The position numbers and the translations under genes were made by a program. A stretch of 40,553 nt of DNA from Clostridia bacterium (lineage in GTDB: Bacteria; Bacillota; Clostridia; Oscillospirales; Acutalibacteraceae), in the NCBI GenBank assembly GCA_017416285.1, contig JAFQCU010000027.1, positions 1 to 40,553 of the forward strand, given 5' to 3'. Positions 9,773-17,018 of the stretch are shown in pieces (within the stretch, counting starts at the first letter, position 1; every line of letters starts with the position of its first letter). The notes under the pieces were generated by a model. The model was not told the origin of the DNA. It was given only the letters and a program-made list of their open reading frames with translations, and did not search any database.

Positions 9773-11044
9773 ATGAAAAAATTTACTGCTGTTTTACTTT
9801 GTTTTATTATGCTTTTCAGCCTTGGTGCCCTTACAGTCAGCGCCGCTGAAAAGGATGACGTTAAATTAGCGCAAGCTAAAGCCGATTATGCCGACTATTT
9901 TTATGGCGGCTATACTGTTGAATATGTTGTGAATTACGTTGCAGGTATGTTCGTTAATGAAGAGGACGAGATTTTTGATAAGGATACAATGACACATCCC
10001 TTTAATGGTGACACGATTAATAAGTATTTAGATGAAAACTTTGTATTTTCCGGCGATATGTTCAGTGAAGTTCAGAAGGGACTTGGCTATGACGCTGACA
10101 CAAACATTTACCATCTCCCCTTTGTTGGCGGCTTCGGTGGTATGAACAAGCCCAGAGAATACGTAAGCTACGTTAAAAATAATGGAAAATACACCCTTTA
10201 TTATCAAACTATTGATTGGTTGTATCTGCCTGATGATGAGCTTAAAAAGATTGAGCAAGAGGATGAATGGCCCTCAAAGGTTACTTACAACGGTAAAACC
10301 TATGAAAACTCGGCAGACGGTTATGTTTGTAATGCCGGCTACAAGGATGGCGGCTTAGCCCACACCTTTGACATTAAAAACGGTATTGCACGTTTTATTT
10401 CAACAGAAAAATACACAGGTAATAAGGTTCCCGTACAAAAACCTGCGGATAAGGAAGAAAACAAAACCGAAGATAAAACTGAAAGCGAAAGCACCACACC
10501 CGAACCTTCAAAGCCCGAACAAACCGTAACCCAAACTGAAGGTCTTGTTCTTTCGGCTGTAGAAAATACCTTTGATAAAGACACAGTTGTAAAGGCTGAA
10601 ATTATTACGGAAAGTGCCGAAAAATTTGAAAAGGTAAACACCGCACTTAAAGAGGTTGCAAACAAGTTCGTTGCATATGAAATTACAGCAACAAAAAATA
10701 ACGTTACCGTTCAGCCAAACGGTACAGTTACCGCAACGTTTGATATTCCTAAGGATTTTGACCTAGAAAAAATTGCTGTATTTTACGTTTCAAATGACGG
10801 CAAAACCGAAGAACTTAGTTCTAAAGTTGATGCTGCCAATGGTAAGGTTACAGCAACTTTAACACACTTTAGCACTTACGTCGTTGCTGAAAAAATTGTT
10901 GTAGAAACAAATGATATTACTACAGATGATGGTGATATTGAAAAACAACCTATTTCACCTTGGCTAATCATTGCAATTGTTGTTTTTGTTTTAGCTACAG
11001 CAGCACTTGTGGTTATTTTGGTTATCAAATTTAAGAAAAAGTAA
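9773..11044 (+). CDS. Secreted, C-terminally membrane-anchored surface protein
   Basis: I recognise no family with certainty. The ATG at 9773 follows AAGGAGAG and opens a signal peptide (MKKFTAVLLCFIMLFSLGAL, probable cut after VSAA, about residue 24). The mature part has a first domain rich in Tyr, Asp and Gly (about 25-215). A low-complexity linker rich in Lys, Glu, Thr and Pro follows (about 220-255), then a beta-rich domain (about 260-385) with ATFDIPKDFDLEKIAVFYV and GKVTATLTHFSTYVV. This repeat-like module is common in clostridial surface proteins. One transmembrane helix (PWLIIAIVVFVLATAALVVI) and a basic tail end the protein, so it should be anchored in the membrane and face outward. 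An upstream ATG at 9746 reads through the ribosome site and is rejected. Confidence 0.75.
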   Translation: MKKFTAVLLCFIMLFSLGALTVSAAEKDDVKLAQAKADYADYFYGGYTVEYVVNYVAGMFVNEEDEIFDKDTMTHPFNGDTINKYLDENFVFSGDMFSEVQKGLGYDADTNIYHLPFVGGFGGMNKPREYVSYVKNNGKYTLYYQTIDWLYLPDDELKKIEQEDEWPSKVTYNGKTYENSADGYVCNAGYKDGGLAHTFDIKNGIARFISTEKYTGNKVPVQKPADKEENKTEDKTESESTTPEPSKPEQTVTQTEGLVLSAVENTFDKDTVVKAEIITESAEKFEKVNTALKEVANKFVAYEITATKNNVTVQPNGTVTATFDIPKDFDLEKIAVFYVSNDGKTEELSSKVDAANGKVTATLTHFSTYVVAEKIVVETNDITTDDGDIEKQPISPWLIIAIVVFVLATAALVVILVIKFKKK

Positions 11045-11056
11045 ATAAATAATTAT

Positions 11057-11090
11057 ACCGCCCTGACTGTTGTCAAGGCGGTTTGTGTTT
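11057..11090 (+). terminator. Terminator after the surface protein gene
   Basis: ACCGCCCTGAC pairs with GTCAAGGCGGT (one G-U pair) around a short loop, followed by a T-rich tail. Confidence 0.75.
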
Positions 11091-11097
11091 TATATGC

Positions 11098-11280
11098 TGT
11101 GGTAAATTAGGGATTATCTGTCAAGGCTTCCCCTTGTGGGGAAACTGGCACCAAAGGTGACTGATGAGGTGTAATTTGCAGCAAGTAAACGGTTTTCCAC
11201 CTCATCCGCTTCGTAACCTCGGCACCTTCTCCGCTGGAGAAGGCTCAAATCATACCAATTAAATCCCCGATAAACTACAA
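11098..11280. repeat. MITE-like palindromic repeat element
   Basis: About 180 bp of imperfect palindrome. The left arm contains GGCTTCCCC..GGGGAAACTGG, CACCAAAGGTG and CTGATGAGGTG. The right arm contains CCACCTCATCCGCTTCG, CGGCACCTTCTCC and GGAGAAGGCTC, the reverse-complement counterpart. Outer ends TGTGGTAAATTAGGGATT and, on the other strand, TGTAGTTTATCGGGGATT match at 13 of 18 positions. There is no reading frame. Elements with this CTTCCCC...CTGATGAGG signature are, from memory, widespread in Clostridia genomes, usually between genes. It could fold as one long hairpin in either transcript and sits between two 3' gene ends. Confidence 0.7.
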
Positions 11281-11289
11281 TTTGAAAAT

Positions 11290-12150
11290 TTAATATCTTA
11301 AATATTTATTCAAAAAATTAAGTGTCTTCTTTTTATCTGCCGACCAAAGCGGAGCAATTAAATCTTTTTTAGCACCATCACCCGTTATGCGGTGAACGAT
11401 AACGTCATTTGGCAAAACTGAAATACACCTTTTCAAAATTTCAGCATATTCTTCTAGTTCTAAAGGTTTAACGGTTCCCTTTTTGTATTCTTCGGCTAAT
11501 TTAGTATTTTTAAGTATATGCAAAAGGTGAAATTTAACCCCATTAGTACCGCAATTTACAGCAAATTTGGTTGTCAAAACGGGGTCATCATTTGGTAAAC
11601 CAATTATAATATGGGTTATAACCTCAATTCCTGCGGCTTTAAGGCGTGAAACGGCATCTTTGTATATTTCACTCTTATAACCACGGTTCATATAAACGGC
11701 CACCGCATCATTTGATGTTTGAAGCCCTAATTCTATGGTTACAGGCTTAATTTTATTCAATTCTTTTAACAATTCTATTACGTCATTTGGTAAACAGTCG
11801 GGACGTGTGCCGATGTTTATGCCAACAATGTAATCCGGCTTTATTGCTTCATAAAACAGCTCTTTTAAACGGTTTACAGAGGCGTAGGTGTTTGTGAAGG
11901 ACTGAAAGTATGCAATATATTTACCGTTTTTTATCTTCGCTTCTACCCTGCTTTTTGCACGTTCTAGCTGTTCGGTTATATTAGTGCCGCTTTCGGCAAA
12001 TTCGCCGCCACCTAAAGCAGAACAAAAAATACAGCCGCCCACACCAACAGCGCCGTCACGATTGGGGCAAGTAAACCCACCGTCAAGTGATAATTTATAA
12101 ACCTTACAACCGTATTTTTCTTTGTAATAATCATTAGCTGTTTTATACAC
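11290..12150 (-). CDS. Radical SAM protein, YtqA/TIGR01212 family
   Basis: A 286-residue radical SAM enzyme. The N-terminus KLSLDGGFTCPNRDGAVG leads to GGCIFCS, giving the three cluster cysteines in the wide-spaced Cx(n)CxxC form typical of the TIGR01212 (YtqA, elongator-like) family. GINIGTRPDCLPNDVIELL, ELGLQTSNDAVAVYMNRGY and GIEVITHIIIGLPNDD are the family's barrel motifs. The C-terminus has KFHLLHILKNTKLAEEYKKG, also family-typical. The biochemical role is unproven in most species; a tRNA-related or cofactor role has been suggested from the Elp3 likeness. The start is GTG at 12150 with GAGGTGATATT upstream. The promoter at 12173-12201 abuts the last spoVAC tail fragment. Confidence 0.88.
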   Translation of the reverse strand: MYKTANDYYKEKYGCKVYKLSLDGGFTCPNRDGAVGVGGCIFCSALGGGEFAESGTNITEQLERAKSRVEAKIKNGKYIAYFQSFTNTYASVNRLKELFYEAIKPDYIVGINIGTRPDCLPNDVIELLKELNKIKPVTIELGLQTSNDAVAVYMNRGYKSEIYKDAVSRLKAAGIEVITHIIIGLPNDDPVLTTKFAVNCGTNGVKFHLLHILKNTKLAEEYKKGTVKPLELEEYAEILKRCISVLPNDVIVHRITGDGAKKDLIAPLWSADKKKTLNFLNKYLRY

Positions 12151-12172
12151 AATATCACCTCACTATAAGGTG

Positions 12173-12201
12173 ATTATATAATAGTTTTGCAGAAAAAACA
12201 A
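12173..12201 (-). promoter_or_regulatory. Promoter of the radical SAM gene
   Basis: On the minus strand, TTGTTT (12201-12196), 17 bp, TATAAT (12178-12173). The -35 box ends 3 bp from the stop codon of spoVAC tail fragment A, so the boundary between the array and the neighbouring gene is very tight. Confidence 0.6.
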
Positions 12202-12204
12202 CGT

Positions 12205-12324
12205 TTATATCATTTTCATTATCCAATAAATAACCCCATACACCACACTCGCAACTGTACCGTATAAAATCACCGGTCCTGCAATGGTGAACATTTTAGC
12301 GCCGACACCCAAGACAAACCCCTC
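12205..12324 (-). pseudogene. spoVAC 3'-end fragment A
   Basis: This 120-bp piece encodes EGFVLGVGAKMFTIAGPV...YGVIYWIMKMI and a stop, matching the last 39 residues of the intact spoVAC at 14852-15298. Apart from its last six codons, which differ (IMKMI in place of VTTIL), about 9 of 102 bases differ from the intact gene by eye. It starts at exactly the same codon (Glu of the KSEG motif) as fragments B and C. It has no start codon or upstream gene body. As the copy farthest from the intact gene it may be the original spoVAC end, displaced leftward. Confidence 0.88.
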
Positions 12325-12364
12325 TGCTGCTGTCAATATAGGACACACCTTTTTTGCAAAAACA

Positions 12365-12393
12365 TTTACATTTAATCAGCGGTGTGGTATAAT
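12365..12393 (+). promoter_or_regulatory. Cassette promoter A
   Basis: TTTACA (12365-12370), 17 bp, TATAAT (12388-12393), followed by AAATAAAGCGAGGTGT as a ribosome site. The segment 12325-12410 is nearly the same as those before the other two cassette genes, although the genes are unrelated. Confidence 0.8.
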
Positions 12394-12414
12394 GAAATAA
12401 AGCGAGGTGTAACT

Positions 12415-12936
12415 ATGAAGAAAACAATATTATCTGCTTTTGTTATATTACTAATAATCTCTTTATGCGGTTGCAATAAATTAGTAGGAGGAAATCTTTT
12501 AGAGATGTCAGGAATGGAATTTGATTCGCAAATAGAAATGATGGAAGAATGTTTATCCATTGATCTCGAAGATTTAACGGACAATTTTATAGAAACAATA
12601 TATTCAGAAACAGACCCAAACGGAAATAGTGTAAGTATTCAGTTTATTTCGCTTGAAGGTGCCGGAGATGTTGTTGAACCCAAAATCAAAGAATCCAATA
12701 GATGGTCAGCATTACCGCTAAATGATGCTGTTGATAATGTGTTTTTATCAAATGACATATACGATCAATATAGTTTTGAAGATGTAAACGGGTATTTTAC
12801 CATAAGCGGTGTCTTGCCGAATGGAGAGGGCTTTGATTTTGATCAAAGCAATATGGATAAATGGGAAGTTTATGAGATAGGGATTTGGGATACCTATGAC
12901 GAAACTCTTTATTTCATTTCAATTACAAAACAATAA
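12415..12936 (+). CDS. Cassette gene A: putative lipoprotein of unknown function
   Basis: I do not recognise the family. The ATG at 12415 lies 4 bp after GAGGTGT. The longer frame from 12382 starts inside the promoter and cannot be transcribed from it. The product has 173 residues with a lipoprotein signal: basic start MKK, hydrophobic stretch ILSAFVILLIISL and the lipobox LCGC. The mature part is acidic, rich in Asp, Glu, Ser and Asn, with no other membrane segment (contains EDVNGYFTISGVLPNGEGFDF). A surface-exposed single-domain protein is likely. It forms a self-contained unit: own promoter, one gene, own terminator, bounded on both sides by spoVAC tail fragments. Its function may be accessory, but nothing in the sequence identifies it. 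Confidence 0.75.
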   Translation: MKKTILSAFVILLIISLCGCNKLVGGNLLEMSGMEFDSQIEMMEECLSIDLEDLTDNFIETIYSETDPNGNSVSIQFISLEGAGDVVEPKIKESNRWSALPLNDAVDNVFLSNDIYDQYSFEDVNGYFTISGVLPNGEGFDFDQSNMDKWEVYEIGIWDTYDETLYFISITKQ

Positions 12937-12942
12937 GTTATG

Positions 12943-12967
12943 GCGGGTGATATCACACCCGCTTTTT
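12943..12967 (+). terminator. Terminator of cassette gene A
   Basis: GCGGGTG and CACCCGC stem (with TATCA-type loop) and TTTTT tail, ending 4 bp before the stop codon of spoVAC fragment B on the other strand. Confidence 0.85.
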
Positions 12968-12970
12968 GCG

Positions 12971-13090
12971 TTAAAATAATGTTGTTATCCCATAAATTAG
13001 CCCATATACCACACTGGCGCTTACACCGTAGACGATGACAGGTCCTGCTATTGTGAACATTTTTGCGCCCAGACCGAGGATATATCCTTC
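12971..13090 (-). pseudogene. spoVAC 3'-end fragment B
   Basis: This 120-bp piece reads EGYILGLGAKMFTIAGPV...YGLIYGITTLF and a stop. It has the same start codon position and length as fragments A and C, with no indels. It is the most diverged copy, yet many of its differences from the intact gene are silent or conservative (F/Y, V/I, V/L), the pattern of a coding sequence that evolved under selection and not of a free pseudogene. Confidence 0.88.
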
Positions 13091-13127
13091 TGCTGCTGTC
13101 AATATAGGACACAGTATTTTTAAAATA

Positions 13128-13156
13128 TTTACATTAAAACAGCGGTGTGGTATAAT
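13128..13156 (+). promoter_or_regulatory. Cassette promoter B
   Basis: TTTACA (13128-13133), 17 bp, TATAAT (13151-13156), then AAATAAAGTGAGGTGT. The 83 bp from 13091 to 13173 are almost the same as 14318-14400. Confidence 0.8.
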
Positions 13157-13178
13157 GAAATAAAGTGAGGTGTGATTT

Positions 13179-14162
13179 ATGTTAGATAACTTAAAGTGGC
13201 ACGAATCTATGTTTATGATGATGCACAACAATCCGACAGAAAAGGTTAATGCAGAATACATTGATGATGTTAAAGCATACTTAAAAGTTCCCGTTAGTCC
13301 TTGCGATAAAAAACAATCCTTAAAACTTTTAAAGCAATTTGCAAGAAAAGATTTTGCGGATTTTTGGAATGAATCTATTAACTCATATCTACCTGCAATC
13401 AGCGAAGGCACAATGAAACTATCGGAAAAAGTATATTCTCACAATGATGCGATTCGTTATGCCAAGGAATTAATTCAAACTCTTGATAAAAAAGAACTGG
13501 CTCGTGCGTTTTTACATGGTGTTGCTAATAATGCTCCTGAATATCGCACTGCCCTTGCCTGCTATTTCTTTATTAAAAATCTGCCCGAGCATCAATTTGA
13601 AAAGAAATATATCGGTACAAATTCAACGGGTGACGTTTATTCCGAAAACACTTGCGAAATATGTAAATATAACAGCAAATTGAGTGACGAGCCAAAAATG
13701 CAGTTTTGGCATATCAATGTTGATATGGAACATTTTTATTTCAAAGCTTTAGTTCCTTTTTGTTTTAATTTGAATACAGCAATTGTTTATTTGGAAGAAT
13801 ATAAAACATTACCAACACCCAATTATACATCCGGAGATTTGCAATTCTTTAAAGAGGTAATTGCCCTTATTGAAACACTTCCTGAAAACACGCCGCCCTC
13901 TAAACTTCGCAAAGAGTTAAAAAGTTCCAAATTGCTTAAAATGACGATTGAACAAATCGATGCATTTATTGATATGCTTGGATATTTAAATATCTTGCAC
14001 ACCGAGGATTCCTTTGGCGTTACCGTAGGTCACACTTGTGAAAGAGATATGCTCTATCCGTTGAGTGACCGTTCATACTTTGCTCATCCGGTAAATCGTT
14101 GGACAAGAAAATGCGGTATCGACTACCAAATGTTTGATATGCTATTTGGGGATTTATATTGA
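13179..14162 (+). CDS. Cassette gene B: protein of unknown function
   Basis: I do not recognise the family. The 327-residue product starts at an ATG 5 bp after GAGGTGT. It has no signal peptide or membrane helix and looks cytoplasmic. The N-terminal half is helical and charged (LKLLKQFARKDFADFWNESI; LDKKELARAFLHGVANNAPEY). A CEIC motif near residue 159 and single Cys residues (LACYFF, HTCERD, RKCGID) could bind a metal, but the spacing does not match a zinc finger I know. A middle segment KMTIEQIDAFIDMLGYLNIL resembles a small helical domain. It fills one cassette alone, with its own promoter and terminator, between spoVAC fragments B and C. An immunity-type or phage-related role is conceivable from context only. 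Confidence 0.7.
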   Translation: MLDNLKWHESMFMMMHNNPTEKVNAEYIDDVKAYLKVPVSPCDKKQSLKLLKQFARKDFADFWNESINSYLPAISEGTMKLSEKVYSHNDAIRYAKELIQTLDKKELARAFLHGVANNAPEYRTALACYFFIKNLPEHQFEKKYIGTNSTGDVYSENTCEICKYNSKLSDEPKMQFWHINVDMEHFYFKALVPFCFNLNTAIVYLEEYKTLPTPNYTSGDLQFFKEVIALIETLPENTPPSKLRKELKSSKLLKMTIEQIDAFIDMLGYLNILHTEDSFGVTVGHTCERDMLYPLSDRSYFAHPVNRWTRKCGIDYQMFDMLFGDLY

Positions 14163-14165
14163 CGA

Positions 14166-14194
14166 AAAGGCTTGACCAATCGGTCAAGCCTTTT
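14166..14194 (+). terminator. Terminator of cassette gene B
   Basis: AAAGGCTTGACC pairs with GGTCAAGCCTTT around a 4-nt loop, with T-run, 3 bp before the stop codon of spoVAC fragment C. The bases after it (TTTTGCGTTAAAATAATG) are shared with the end of cassette A. Confidence 0.9.
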
Positions 14195-14197
14195 GCG

Positions 14198-14317
14198 TTA
14201 AAATAATGTCGTCGCCCAGTAAATAATCCCATACACCACGCTTGCCACCACGCCGTATACAATTACAGGACCTGCTATGGTAAACATCTTCGCGCCGACA
14301 CCCAAGACAAAGCCCTC
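14198..14317 (-). pseudogene. spoVAC 3'-end fragment C
   Basis: This 120-bp piece reads EGFVLGVGAKMFTIAGPV...YGIIYWATTLF and a stop, with six amino-acid differences from the intact tail in 39 residues. It has the same length and break point as A and B. Beyond the break, the minus strand reads through cassette DNA (GCAGCAGAGGG at the junction), not through spoVAC. Confidence 0.88.
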
Positions 14318-14354
14318 TGCTGCTGTCAATATAGTACACAGTATTTTTAAAATA

Positions 14355-14383
14355 TTTACATTAAAACAGCGGTGTGGTATAAT
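14355..14383 (+). promoter_or_regulatory. Cassette promoter C
   Basis: TTTACA (14355-14360), 17 bp, TATAAT (14378-14383), then AAATAAAGCGAGGTGT ending at 14400. Confidence 0.8.
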
Positions 14384-14404
14384 GAAATAAAGCGAGGTGT
14401 TTTT

Positions 14405-14818
14405 ATGAGCAAAAAAGGGATAGAGGCTGCGGTAAAAAAGCTCGAAGAATATTACGCGCAGTTTCCGGATTGGTACTGGAAATATGGACTTCACGACGCT
14501 GTTATTCTCTCTGTTTCTGAATTACAATTAGCACCTGACTATAAAGAAAAACCGTTAAAGTACAATTGTTTAGAAATTGAATTGAACAGCAAAAACGCTT
14601 TGTACGAACGAAACATTAAAACAATTCGGTTATACAACTATAAAATCAAAACGCCCGATATTGATATAAATAGTATTGATAAACCCTGGTGGATAAGTGA
14701 TACTATTGAGAAACTTGGCAACGGACGGTATTTACTCGAAATCAAAATTGAATCAGCAAAAGGTAGTCGAAAGAATTTTGTAGTGGAATTTGAGATTCCC
14801 GAAATAGAAAGAAAATAA
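14405..14818 (+). CDS. Cassette gene C: small protein of unknown function
   Basis: I do not recognise the family. The ATG at 14405 is 4 bp after GAGGTGT, giving 137 residues; the frame opening at 14372 lies within the promoter. There is no signal peptide. The N-terminal helix is followed by FPDWYWKYGLHDAVILSVSE, and the rest looks like alternating beta strands (YNCLEIELNSKNALYE, IKTIRLYNYKI, GRYLLEIKIES, KNFVVEFEI). Size, beta-rich fold and a single-gene cassette remind me of immunity proteins in polymorphic-toxin arrays, but this is context only and no toxin is visible here. The gene lies next to the intact spoVAC, tail to tail, separated by a terminator that overlaps the spoVAC stop codon. 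Confidence 0.72.
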   Translation: MSKKGIEAAVKKLEEYYAQFPDWYWKYGLHDAVILSVSELQLAPDYKEKPLKYNCLEIELNSKNALYERNIKTIRLYNYKIKTPDIDINSIDKPWWISDTIEKLGNGRYLLEIKIESAKGSRKNFVVEFEIPEIERK

Positions 14819-14824
14819 AAAGCT

Positions 14825-14853
14825 AAACAGGCGGTCATTGACCACCTGTTTTT
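14825..14853 (+). terminator. Terminator of cassette gene C
   Basis: AACAGG/CCTGTT and GGTC/GACC pair around a small loop, with a T-run that overlaps the last bases of spoVAC on the opposite strand. It may also work for spoVAC. Confidence 0.75.
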
Positions 14854-15298
14854 ATAGTATAGTTGTTACCCAATAAATAACCCCATACACCACACTTGCC
14901 ACAGTACCATAAAGAATTACCGGTCCTGCAATGGTGAACATTTTAGCACCGACACCCAAGACAAAGCCCTCGCTTTTAAATTCGATTGCGGGTGAAACAA
15001 CGGCATTTGAAAAGCCTGTGATAGGCACCAAGGTCCCAGCCCCTGCATATTTTGCGATTTTTTCAAATATGCCGAAACCCGTTAAAATTGCCGCAATAGT
15101 AATTAAGGTTACCGGCACAAGCATTTTTACAATTTCGGGTTTTAGGTTAAAATATTCTGTATAAACAAAGGTGAGTGTTTCACCTAAAGAACAAATAAAA
15201 CCACCCACCAAAAAAGCAAGAATACAGTTTTTCAGTTTTGGTGACGGCGGCGATGCTTTTTTAGTCATTTTATCATAAGTTTTTTTATTAATTTCCAT
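14852..15298 (-). CDS. spoVAC: Stage V sporulation protein AC
   Basis: SpoVAC is a membrane channel protein that carries Ca-dipicolinic acid into the developing spore and out during germination. The 148-residue product has the family hallmarks: a short basic N-terminus with PPSPKLKNCILAFLVGGFICSLGE, then hydrophobic helices, FAGAGTLVPITGF-like YAGAGTLVPITGFSNAVVSPAIEFKSEGFVLGV and the final helices KMFTIAGPVILYG and VVYGVIYW. Length is normal. The ATG at 15298 has GAGGTG seven bases upstream; the frame from 15331 is longer but lacks a ribosome site. In most relatives spoVAD and spoVAE follow directly. Here three cassettes with spoVAC tails follow, and truncated spoVAD is 13 kb away. Its ribosome site is inside the hairpin that ends luxS. 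Confidence 0.93.
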   Translation of the reverse strand: MEINKKTYDKMTKKASPPSPKLKNCILAFLVGGFICSLGETLTFVYTEYFNLKPEIVKMLVPVTLITIAAILTGFGIFEKIAKYAGAGTLVPITGFSNAVVSPAIEFKSEGFVLGVGAKMFTIAGPVILYGTVASVVYGVIYWVTTIL

Positions 15299-15302
15299 AA
15301 TA

Positions 15303-15344
15303 AAACACCTCTTCAGTGCTATTTTTAACACTAAAGAGGTGTTT
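15303..15344 (-). terminator. luxS terminator hairpin that contains the spoVAC ribosome site
   Basis: On the minus strand, AAACACCTCTTTAGTG pairs with CACTGAAGAGGTGTTT (one mismatch) around a 10-nt loop. The 3' arm includes the GAGGTG used by spoVAC. In read-through transcripts from luxS the site would be paired and spoVAC translation weak; a transcript starting inside the hairpin would free it. Confidence 0.7.
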
Positions 15345-15350
15345 ATTCAT

Positions 15351-15818
15351 TTAATTGGGATATTCTAAACGCTTATTTTCTAAAAGCTCGTTTTTATATT
15401 TTTTGATATAAAACTTTGCCATATTCAAATTTTGTTCAGAATAGTTTCCGCATTCCTCGGGCTTTGCACCGGGGATATCCCCCTCAAAACCGATAATAAA
15501 ATCACACATATTAAGTACCTTATCATAAATATCGGCTGAAGTTAAATCGCCGAACATAACAAGATAACAACCCGTTCTGCAGCCCATTGGACCGAAGTAT
15601 ACGACCTCATCTTTAAAATCACTGTTGCGAAGATAGGTTGCGGCAAGATGCTCAATAGTATGAAGTGCGGGCACGTCAATGACCGGCTCACGATTAGGGG
15701 CAGTTATTCTTAAATCAAAGGTGGTAACAGTAACACCGTTACAGGTGTCCTTGCGTGAAACGTAAATGCCCGAAAATAATTCCAAATGATTAATTGTAAA
15801 GCTTGTAATTTTTTCCAT
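15351..15818 (-). CDS. luxS: S-ribosylhomocysteine lyase (LuxS)
   Basis: LuxS splits S-ribosylhomocysteine into homocysteine and the precursor of autoinducer-2, in the activated methyl cycle. The 155-residue product has the family's normal length. The metal site HTIEH is at residues 53-57, the catalytic Cys is in GPMGCRTGCY (Cys84), and the third metal ligand is probably the Cys of EECGNY near residue 123. RKDTCNGVTVTTFDLR near the N-terminus is also conserved. It starts 9 bp after the cyclophilin gene with AGGTGT as ribosome site, so the two probably share a transcript. A hairpin terminator follows. No pfs/mtnN gene is in the window. Confidence 0.95.
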   Translation of the reverse strand: MEKITSFTINHLELFSGIYVSRKDTCNGVTVTTFDLRITAPNREPVIDVPALHTIEHLAATYLRNSDFKDEVVYFGPMGCRTGCYLVMFGDLTSADIYDKVLNMCDFIIGFEGDIPGAKPEECGNYSEQNLNMAKFYIKKYKNELLENKRLEYPN

Positions 15819-15826
15819 ATTACACC

Positions 15827-16423
15827 TTAAATTTCGATAATTTCAATGCTTTCAATTATAACGTCAAACATAGGCTTGTCGTTCATACCAACCTTACAGT
15901 TTGCGATTTTGTCAACAACGTCCATACCTTCATACACTTGACCGAAAACGGTGTGACGGAAGTCAAGCCAAGGGGTTCCACCCATTTCGGCATAGGCCTT
16001 AGCACACTCAGGCGGGAAAGCGTCGGGCAAATCCTCCATTTGTTCAAGCATATTTGCGGGACAAGTGTCTGCCTGAACAATAAAGAACTGACTGCCGTTT
16101 GTATTAGGACCGGCATTAGCCATTGACAAAGCGCCACGTAAATTGTGAAGCTCGGGTGTAAATTCATCTTGGAATTTTCTGCCCCAGATTGATTCACCGC
16201 CCATGCCGTTACCCATGGGGTCACCGCCTTGAATCATAAAATCCTTGATTACACGGTGAAAAATAAGGCCGTTATAATAGCCGTTTTTGGCGTGTGTTGT
16301 GAAGTTTTCAAAGGTTTTAGGTGTTTCGTTTTTGAAAAGTTTAATCTTAATATCACCCATTGTGGTATGCATAATTGCAACAGTATCACCGGTAACGGGT
16401 TTTTCTAACTGAAAATATGACAT
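15827..16423 (-). CDS. Peptidyl-prolyl cis-trans isomerase, cyclophilin type
   Basis: A cytoplasmic cyclophilin that speeds proline isomerisation in protein folding. The 198-residue product has no signal peptide. Motifs appear in order: [47 protein letters not shown] (with the catalytic Arg of FHRV), [19 protein letters not shown] and a late [17 protein letters not shown]. An insert of about 30 residues after FIVQ ([20 protein letters not shown]) is longer than in minimal cyclophilins but known in Firmicute members. The ATG at 16423 has GGAGGG 8 bp upstream; the frame from 16465 runs into the promoter. Its promoter overlaps that of nrdR on the other strand. Confidence 0.93.
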
Positions 16424-16451
16424 AAAAAGCCCTCCAGATTGAAATTTATAC

Positions 16452-16484
16452 TTGTATTTTACCACTATATATTGTATAATACAA
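16452..16484. promoter_or_regulatory. Superimposed divergent promoters of nrdR and the cyclophilin gene
   Basis: Plus strand: TTGTAT (16452-16457), 17 bp, TATAAT (16475-16480) towards nrdR. Minus strand: TTGTAT (16484-16479), 17 bp, TAAAAT (16461-16456) towards the cyclophilin and luxS. Each -35 box overlaps the other promoter's -10 box, and the outer bases CTTGTAT and ATACAAG form a near-palindrome. RNA polymerase could occupy only one direction at a time. Confidence 0.72.
16462..16477. promoter_or_regulatory. Candidate NrdR box
   Basis: CCACTATATATTGTAT matches the NrdR-box consensus ACACWATATATTGTGT at 14 of 16 positions by eye. It lies between the boxes of the two overlapping promoters and touches the nrdR -10 box. 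NrdR is the repressor of ribonucleotide reductase genes, and autoregulation would follow. A right half-site TTGTAT 20 bp upstream (16452-16457) might be part of a weak second box. Confidence 0.5.
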
Positions 16485-16524
16485 GTAAATTATGGATAAT
16501 TTTTAAAATAAGGGGTAATATCTT

Positions 16525-16980
16525 ATGAAATGTCCGTTTTGCAACTATGAAGAAAGCAAGGTAATCGACTCACGCCCCACTGACGAAGGTCAACGTATTC
16601 GCCGCAGACGTGAATGTCTCCAATGCACCAAGCGCTTCACAACCTATGAAATTATTGAAAGCTTACCTATTATCGTTATCAAGAAGGACAAGTCACGTGA
16701 ATCCTTTAACCGTGATAAGCTTATGACCGGTCTTTTACGTGCTTGTGAAAAGCGTCCGGTATCAATCGACCAGCTTGATAATATGATTGATGAGATTGAA
16801 ACCATTATTCAAAATTCACTTGACCGTGAAGTTAGCAGTGAAAAAATTGGTGAGCTTGTTATGGATAAGCTTAAGGGTATTGACGAGGTTGCTTACGTTC
16901 GTTTTGCTTCGGTATATCGCCAGTTTAAGGATATTAACACCTTTATGAACGAGCTTAACAAGCTTTTAGGAAAAGATTAA
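16525..16980 (+). CDS. nrdR: Transcriptional repressor NrdR
   Basis: NrdR senses ATP/dATP and represses ribonucleotide reductase genes. The 151-residue product has the normal length. An N-terminal zinc ribbon [17 protein letters not shown] with a second Cys pair in [16 protein letters not shown] is followed by an ATP-cone domain from about residue 49 ([26 protein letters not shown]...[31 protein letters not shown]). AGGGGTAA precedes the ATG. No nrd reductase gene is nearby; those would be trans targets. The gene ends at a strong terminator, so gltX needs its own promoter or read-through. Confidence 0.96.
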
Positions 16981-16986
16981 TAACTG

Positions 16987-17018
16987 ACAAAGGGTATTGA
17001 ACGATACCCTTTGTTTTT
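16987..17018 (+). terminator. Terminator after nrdR
   Basis: ACAAAGGGTAT pairs with ATACCCTTTGT around a short loop, followed by TTTTT. Confidence 0.88.

Follow-up and report, generated by a model that had tools for sequence, protein, structure and literature searches.

How does the 3' end of a sporulation gene come to stand four times in a row on one contig, each copy parted from the next by a gene? The question is raised by Clostridia bacterium contig JAFQCU010000027.1 (40,553 nt, analysed whole and called the window hereafter), which belongs to a genome of 1.45 Mb that is 85% complete. There, an intact spoVAC gene on the minus strand is joined by three plus-strand genes, each with a 120-bp minus-strand copy of the end, or tail, of spoVAC; all three copies break at the same Glu codon and share one junction. 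A first-pass annotation of the sequence had described this layout, and the description proved accurate. It had also proposed repeated insertion at the spoVAC 3' end, with the former tail pushed aside, and this now holds as a site-specific process found in many species. The answer that we consider probable is a gene-cassette system that depends on serine recombinases and uses the spoVAC 3' end as its integration site.

Each displaced tail of the window consists of the last 39 codons of spoVAC plus the stop, starts at the common Glu codon and is joined on the plus strand to TGCTGCTGTCAATATAG. In spoVAC orientation, each unit comprises a tail with its stop, a terminator-like hairpin, a gene on the opposite strand, a promoter, a 20-bp arm and the next tail. 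The complete repeat measures about 203-213 bp. Compared with the copy at 14198, the others show 83-85% identity, and the window's own genome holds the spoVAC-tail repeat at these four places only. Chance can be excluded because the same breakpoint and arm recur in many other genomes.

When a spoVAC protein query was used, isolated tail matches were found in 12 of 60 genomes (the window's own included), starting at residues 89-109 of 148, and the aligned tails share one breakpoint. A search for the arm and junction, a comparison already outlined in the first-pass annotation, found the same breakpoint and arm at spoVAC far beyond the window. With one mismatch allowed, a pattern for arm types A and B, which does not cover type C, matched 15 of 70 genomes of the genus and 21 of 394 genomes of the order. 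Twelve of these 21 matches are exact and spread across 8 families; the remaining nine have one mismatch in the arm, and G073, the only one of them inspected, shows no tail. A pattern for all three types retrieved 114 stretches from the genome collection. Among the 80 whose titles were listed, 77 name Clostridia, Clostridiales, Oscillospiraceae or Ruminococcus, two Bacillota and one a plain bacterium, and many name ruminant gut samples. The 139 unique sites, viral contigs included, comprise 74 arms of type A, 31 of type C and 24 of type B. Without viral contigs there are 137 arm sites, and 117 of them read straight into a tail (at least 50% identity over 30 amino acids); tail identity is 20-50% in 13 others and lower in seven. 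In the 70 native spoVAC genes listed, the active tail is open to a stop after 38-43 residues, and 61 of these genes have an arm-tail site downstream.

Evidence for movement comes from the cassette cores. Cores up to 98.6% identical are found in hosts whose spoVAC bodies are only 56-74% identical; cassette 1 of the window, for instance, is 98.6% identical to its counterpart in locus L177, while the spoVAC bodies share 64%. The closest pair of cores, at 99.4%, has no spoVAC body to compare. Relatives also occur in another family, as cassette 1 is 84% identical to a cassette of L031 (genome G058), and cassette 3 shares 89% DNA identity with a cassette of that same locus. Near-identical cores thus occupy hosts with diverged spoVAC bodies, and there is strong support for cassettes that are mobile between families of Clostridia and site-specific at spoVAC.

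The boundaries of the mobile unit are of unequal sharpness. On the right, divergence sets in just past the arm and GAGGG in the 16 pairs listed, out of 30 with at least 87% core identity. On the left, identity starts at scattered points, in the last tail codons or at the stop. Arm type is equal in 12 of the 14 pairs of cores with at least 94% identity (expected fraction 0.43), and in 11 of 17 pairs at 87-94%; below 87% it is at chance level, with 10 of 25 pairs equal at 80-87%. The pairs are not independent, as they fall into 16 cassette families at 87% or more, and L101 was counted as 'other' because its site had been placed one base off. Hence, in close pairs the core keeps its arm but not the tail behind that arm.

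The first-pass annotation had proposed, as one of its models, a recombinase acting in trans, and had named a co-occurring recombinase gene as something to look for. Such genes were found: in L229, three complete tandem large serine recombinases (LSRs) of 550, 566 and 535 amino acids form the end of an element that terminates in arm B at the same point, and all three carry PF00239 (Resolvase) and PF07508 (Recombinase). Genome G138 likewise has three tandem LSRs, the third cut by the contig end, with a diverged arm. An LSR fragment in L098 ends about 87 bp before arm B; this piece of 127 amino acids alone gave no recombinase match in Pfam, and is called an LSR because it is 98% identical to the third LSR (LSR3) of L229. 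A stretch of about 450 nt that covers the LSR end and arm is 96-98% identical among L229, L098 and L152, against 63-72% in the next 105 nt past GA. Between 84 and 114 nt of the same LSR end lie at contig edges in L031 and L099 (G058 and G201). Leaving out L233, which was excluded from this comparison, identity among the LSR-end contigs drops to 59-81% past GA, the pair L098 and L099 being the exception. The gene spoVAD comes directly after the displaced tail in L152 and G138, which is what insertion into an ordinary spoVAC-spoVAD operon should give. Over 85 nt, the tail next to the LSRs of L229 is identical to the active tail of L210, and one array in G058 combines cassettes with the end of the LSR element. 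The LSR contigs stop, on the element side, within the LSR genes or shortly after them.

Further LSR elements were sought in genomes, viral contigs and plasmids. The C-terminus of LSR3 was matched (E 1e-12) in two of 394 genomes of the order, and the family of G125 gave a match in one of 12 genomes. A search of viral contigs returned L229 itself only, and the plasmid collection gave 376 records, all of them relatives below 60% identity, some annotated as TndX. The model of a recombinase in trans gains support from the three tandem LSRs with the same arm at the same breakpoint, and the absence of an integrase noted earlier is true of the window and not of other members of the system. Arm B is tied to LSRs; arms A and C would be tied to them by their likeness to B, by the arrays they share with it and by the common breakpoint. 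There are good grounds to assign the integration to the triplet LSR family, whose activity is predicted.

A cassette carries a single gene or a short operon, mostly under a promoter of its own, and ends in a conserved arm that meets a tail exactly at GA/GG. For its integration the following mechanism can be proposed. The LSRs would recombine the arm-GA-tail of a circular cassette with the body-GA-tail of spoVAC. The incoming cassette would land beside spoVAC and supply a new tail, so that the gene stays open, and the former tail would be parked behind the arm. The target would be rebuilt after every event, the array growing at its spoVAC end, and cassettes without LSR genes would use LSRs in trans. 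Exit would usually rely on homologous recombination, with the crossover in the final codons of adjacent tails, where conservation is highest, each hop leaving one tail behind and taking the next. Homologous exit combined with entry at GA would explain why the tails stay with neither cassette nor host.

The tails themselves were examined in spoVAC genes with and without cassettes. Carriers were defined by an arm in the downstream DNA examined; up to 35 short loci count as non-carriers by absence of tail matches, and G004, where an arm lacks a tail, was so counted in a forerunner of the local-identity test. In 62 carriers, local identity follows the rest of spoVAC with rho 0.37-0.51 within codons 20-109 and only 0.13-0.18 for codons 110-149, a drop that is descriptive. 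The corresponding values in 42 non-carriers are 0.44-0.63 and 0.38-0.52. Across 50 arrays, the active tail correlates with the body at rho 0.25 (Mantel p 0.002). Both flanking tails are intact in 99 of the 124 cassettes, and there they differ by 1160 synonymous versus 316 nonsynonymous codons. Because active tails are uncoupled from the body in carriers and the flanking tails differ mainly synonymously, active tails seem to be exchanged among functional genes. An L041-type tail in the L178 array (96.5%) points, by its sequence, to transfer between species. The idea that each cassette brings a replacement tail survives in part: active tails are decoupled from the body and look like functional C-termini of different lineages, but a cassette keeps no given tail. 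A plain Campbell integration in which the cassette carries the tail was rejected, since the tail is not kept on either side of the core; the decoupling seen in carriers between active tails and the body speaks against repair of the tail by host alleles.

Some tails are irregular. At the arm site at 2477 of the reverse complement of L195, the displaced tail reads EGMI-HWLTTLF and stop, its middle missing in frame, which may be the footprint of a recombination event. A GC-rich insert of similar sequence (..CGCGGCCACTCGCTC..) breaks up several tails in L151, L165, L173, L177 and L181, and may be a small repeat element that resides in spoVAC tails.

Other explanations account for part of these observations. 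The stepwise spoVAC duplication followed by deletions that the first-pass annotation had listed is favoured only by the fact that the tails are partial copies of one gene. It fails on cores 97.8-98.6% identical in distant hosts whose spoVAC bodies are 59-72% identical, and on an LSR element at the same point; one breakpoint and arm shared across 8 families, together with transfer between families, refute it, and we give it next to no probability. Homologous recombination alone, in which DNA uptake would swap cassettes through the conserved promoter-arm and terminator blocks of existing arrays, is an unlikely cause. Such conserved blocks do lie on both sides of the genes, and arm types are reassorted over longer times, as the pairs at 80-87% show; in the pairs window/L177 and L180/L225, moreover, identity is lost already at the -10 region. 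Yet recombination does not create arrays, the close pairs listed diverge past GAGGG and keep their arm type at 94% identity or more, and the LSR element has the same junction. Slightly less improbable, though still unlikely, is a long target duplication, in which the mobile unit would extend only from the last spoVAC codons to the arm, and about 105 bp of host tail would be copied to both sides on insertion, somewhat like the copying of a repeat in CRISPR adaptation. Adjacent tails at least 90% identical over 85 nt (21 of 146 pairs, 18 of them distinct) would be simpler to explain in this way. Rare tail motifs recur within single arrays (L126, L150, L199 and L221), the core travels with neither tail, and in L228 the two tails are 99% identical, with an active gene that ends in the cassette-type YWITTLF and a displaced copy that ends in EWLAVQI. 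Against duplication, the synonymous differences between most adjacent tails resemble those of separate lineages, not of decaying duplicates, and the decoupling of active tails from the body in carriers argues in the same direction; we also know of no enzyme that makes cuts staggered by 105 nt. From the near-identical neighbours and the motifs that recur within arrays, many tail exchanges look local.

Serine-recombinase integration thus remains the reading that we prefer, and several observations besides the near-identical neighbouring tails weigh against it. In four of the 16 close pairs (window/L177, and L180 with L225, L199 and L213), differences appear as early as the stretch from the -10 box to the arm. 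The distal tail, expected to be the host original, does not track the body (rho -0.04, n=50). No tail is shared at 90% or more on either side of homologous cassettes (0 of 54 pairs; at most 0.85 of 85 nt). Plain LSR integration predicts that a cassette takes along the tail ahead of its gene, which is not what is seen; homologous exit predicts that the tail before cassette A equals the tail after cassette B, and this comparison gave nothing above 0.85 in the 54 pairs. Between L098 and L099, which belong to one genus, the contrast at GA is small (94% before versus 87% after). LSRs stand beside arm B only, plus the diverged arm of G138; the majority types A and C are never beside a recombinase in the DNA examined. 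In the window's own genome (85% complete), no arm-associated LSR was found with the LSR3 C-terminus at E 1e-12, nor any match to the second LSR at E 1e-40. A search of the class with LSR3 at E 1e-140 gave no match in 391 genomes, among which there is no known positive. Finally, neither a circle nor a reaction was observed.

To describe the contents of the arrays, 124 unique cassettes were cut from the loci, excluding sites more than 15 kb apart. Their median length is 1,043 bp (range 450-6,357 bp); the earlier description of units below 1.3 kb fits the window, and elsewhere cassettes reach 6.4 kb. A further tail pair in L106 spans 6.9 kb, and its last site has no recognisable arm. A single open reading frame (ORF) of at least 60 amino acids is present in 89 of the 124, and in 102 of the 123 with an ORF the arm-proximal one is opposite to spoVAC. 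Of the 124 cassettes, 71 have the exact promoter form TTTACA/TTGACA-17-TATAAT within 200 nt before the arm, compared with none of 117 in the next 400 nt; this form was preferred to a looser expression that matched 102 of 124 cassettes and also 41 of 124 shuffled and 37 of 119 neighbouring sequences. Larger cassettes carry catabolic genes, such as L-rhamnose isomerase with a sugar kinase, or a glycyl radical enzyme; another encodes a zinc-type dehydrogenase and an aminotransferase-fold enzyme (by eye, threonine dehydrogenase and its ligase). In L031 (G058), a cassette bears a retron-type reverse transcriptase at 10961-11872, beside an arm A tail (PADLOC RT_Ec107-like, E 6e-126). The arrays offer a ready catalogue of mobile genes, with small lipoprotein-like and membrane proteins, a retron-type reverse transcriptase and sugar genes.

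Contigs L026, L027 (G033), L029 (G011) and L031 (G058) end within about 1 kb of a tail; arrays are therefore probably longer than assembled. At the opposite contig end of L031 (1509-2965), about 9 kb from the array, lie SpoVAD and a second gene of the SpoVAC/SpoVAEB family; for this reason, insertion may have split the spoVA operon in G058.

In the window, the host gene and integration platform is the intact spoVAC at 14852..15298 on the minus strand (Pfam PF03862, SpoVAC_SpoVAEB, E 3e-40). Its product is 88% identical to that of G027 and 58-76% identical to those of the other genus members with a near full-length match. The active tail, from the GA/GG breakpoint to the stop, occupies 14852..14971 (minus), and a hairpin terminator at 14825..14851 (minus) separates spoVAC from cassette 1. 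This cassette carries a gene of 137 amino acids from ATG (14405..14818, plus), a promoter (14355..14383, plus) and a type A arm (GTaCTATATTGACAGCAGCA) with one mismatch (14318..14337, minus), which meets displaced tail 1 (14198..14317, minus). Cassette 2 has a gene of 327 amino acids (13179..14162, plus), a promoter (13128..13156, plus) and an exact type A arm (13091..13110, minus), followed by displaced tail 2 (12971..13090, minus). In cassette 3, a gene of 173 amino acids from ATG (12415..12936, plus), lipoprotein-like by eye (signal and Cys), lies between a promoter (12365..12393, plus) and a terminator (12942..12963, plus); its exact type A arm (12325..12344, minus) meets displaced tail 3 (12205..12324, minus), the distal end of the array. 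None of the three genes has a convincing family match in Pfam, NCBIfam or PADLOC, the only Pfam match being a sub-threshold one for cassette 3. The three promoters, of sigma-70 type (TTTACA-17-TATAAT with TG), score 11/12 and are the top three of 14 promoter-like sites in the region; the total is close to the shuffled expectation of 12.8, and the positions of the top three are not chance-like. An Rfam scan of 10500-17000 gave no match at gathering scores. A palindrome-like intergenic repeat was noted by eye at 11100-11250 (CTTCCCCTTGTGGGGAAAC...GGTGACTGATGAGGTG), without an Rfam family match.

Single-gene cassette arrays are known chiefly from integrons, where a tyrosine recombinase acts: arrays grow at one end by a fixed platform, each cassette has a site (attC, which folds as a hairpin), and the genes are varied and often of unassigned function. 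The spoVAC arrays resemble them in their single-gene cassettes, the proposed growth at the end next to a fixed platform, one recombination site each and varied genes. They differ in that the linked enzymes are serine recombinases, that the site is partly coding sequence of a core gene, and that most cassettes, unlike promoterless ones, have a promoter-like site (exact consensus in 71 of 124). This last feature sets them apart from integrons proper. No IntI was noticed among the array ORFs listed, a set to which no search aimed at IntI or PF00589 was applied.

The staphylococcal and enterococcal cassette chromosomes (SCC/SCCmec and ECC) form composite arrays with recombinase-free members. ECCs use large serine recombinases for insertion in the 3' region of a conserved gene, with direct repeats of about 50 bp at the ends and several attR sites in 16 of 32 ECCs (PMC6222049). 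The spoVAC system shares with cassette chromosomes an LSR as integrase, linked here to type B arms only and of predicted activity, and a target gene that keeps an intact 3' end. The target is spoVAC instead of rlmH, the repeat is 120 bp of coding sequence, three LSRs stand in place of ccrAB, and most cassettes are single-gene units of 0.5-2 kb with their own promoter, compared with islands that measure 21-78 kb. NCBIfam Ccr models gave the LSRs 33-123 bits against cut-offs of 700-900, and the enzymes are not CcrA, CcrB or CcrC. Hence, the spoVAC system is no member of the cassette chromosomes and, in its working, lies between these and integrons. The Streptococcus integrative and conjugative elements (ICEs) with triplet serine integrases have three same-orientation genes beside the target gene, and target and disrupt mutT, traG or hsdM with 2-8 bp repeats (PMC4701971). 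Three tandem LSR genes beside the junction are common to both (complete in L229, the third cut in G138), but spoVAC remains open, and its site is shared by small cassettes that lack LSRs.

The first-pass annotation knew of no described system with this layout, and a literature search found no account of cassettes at spoVAC; preprints and most subscription papers lay outside that search. A tentative proposal, which we hold with a little less than even confidence, is that this is a separate kind of gene capture: an integron-like array run by serine recombinases that would use as its site the end of the coding sequence of a core sporulation gene, with the C-terminus of SpoVAC reassorted at every capture. 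As the products (arm-GA-tail and body-GA-tail) would also be the substrates, the reaction could run both ways without a directionality factor. The three serine recombinases are the likely machine for the spoVAC cassette arrays. A serine recombinase family in gut Clostridia thus appears to do an integron-like job, with gene capture tied to the tail of a dipicolinic acid channel protein, SpoVAC.

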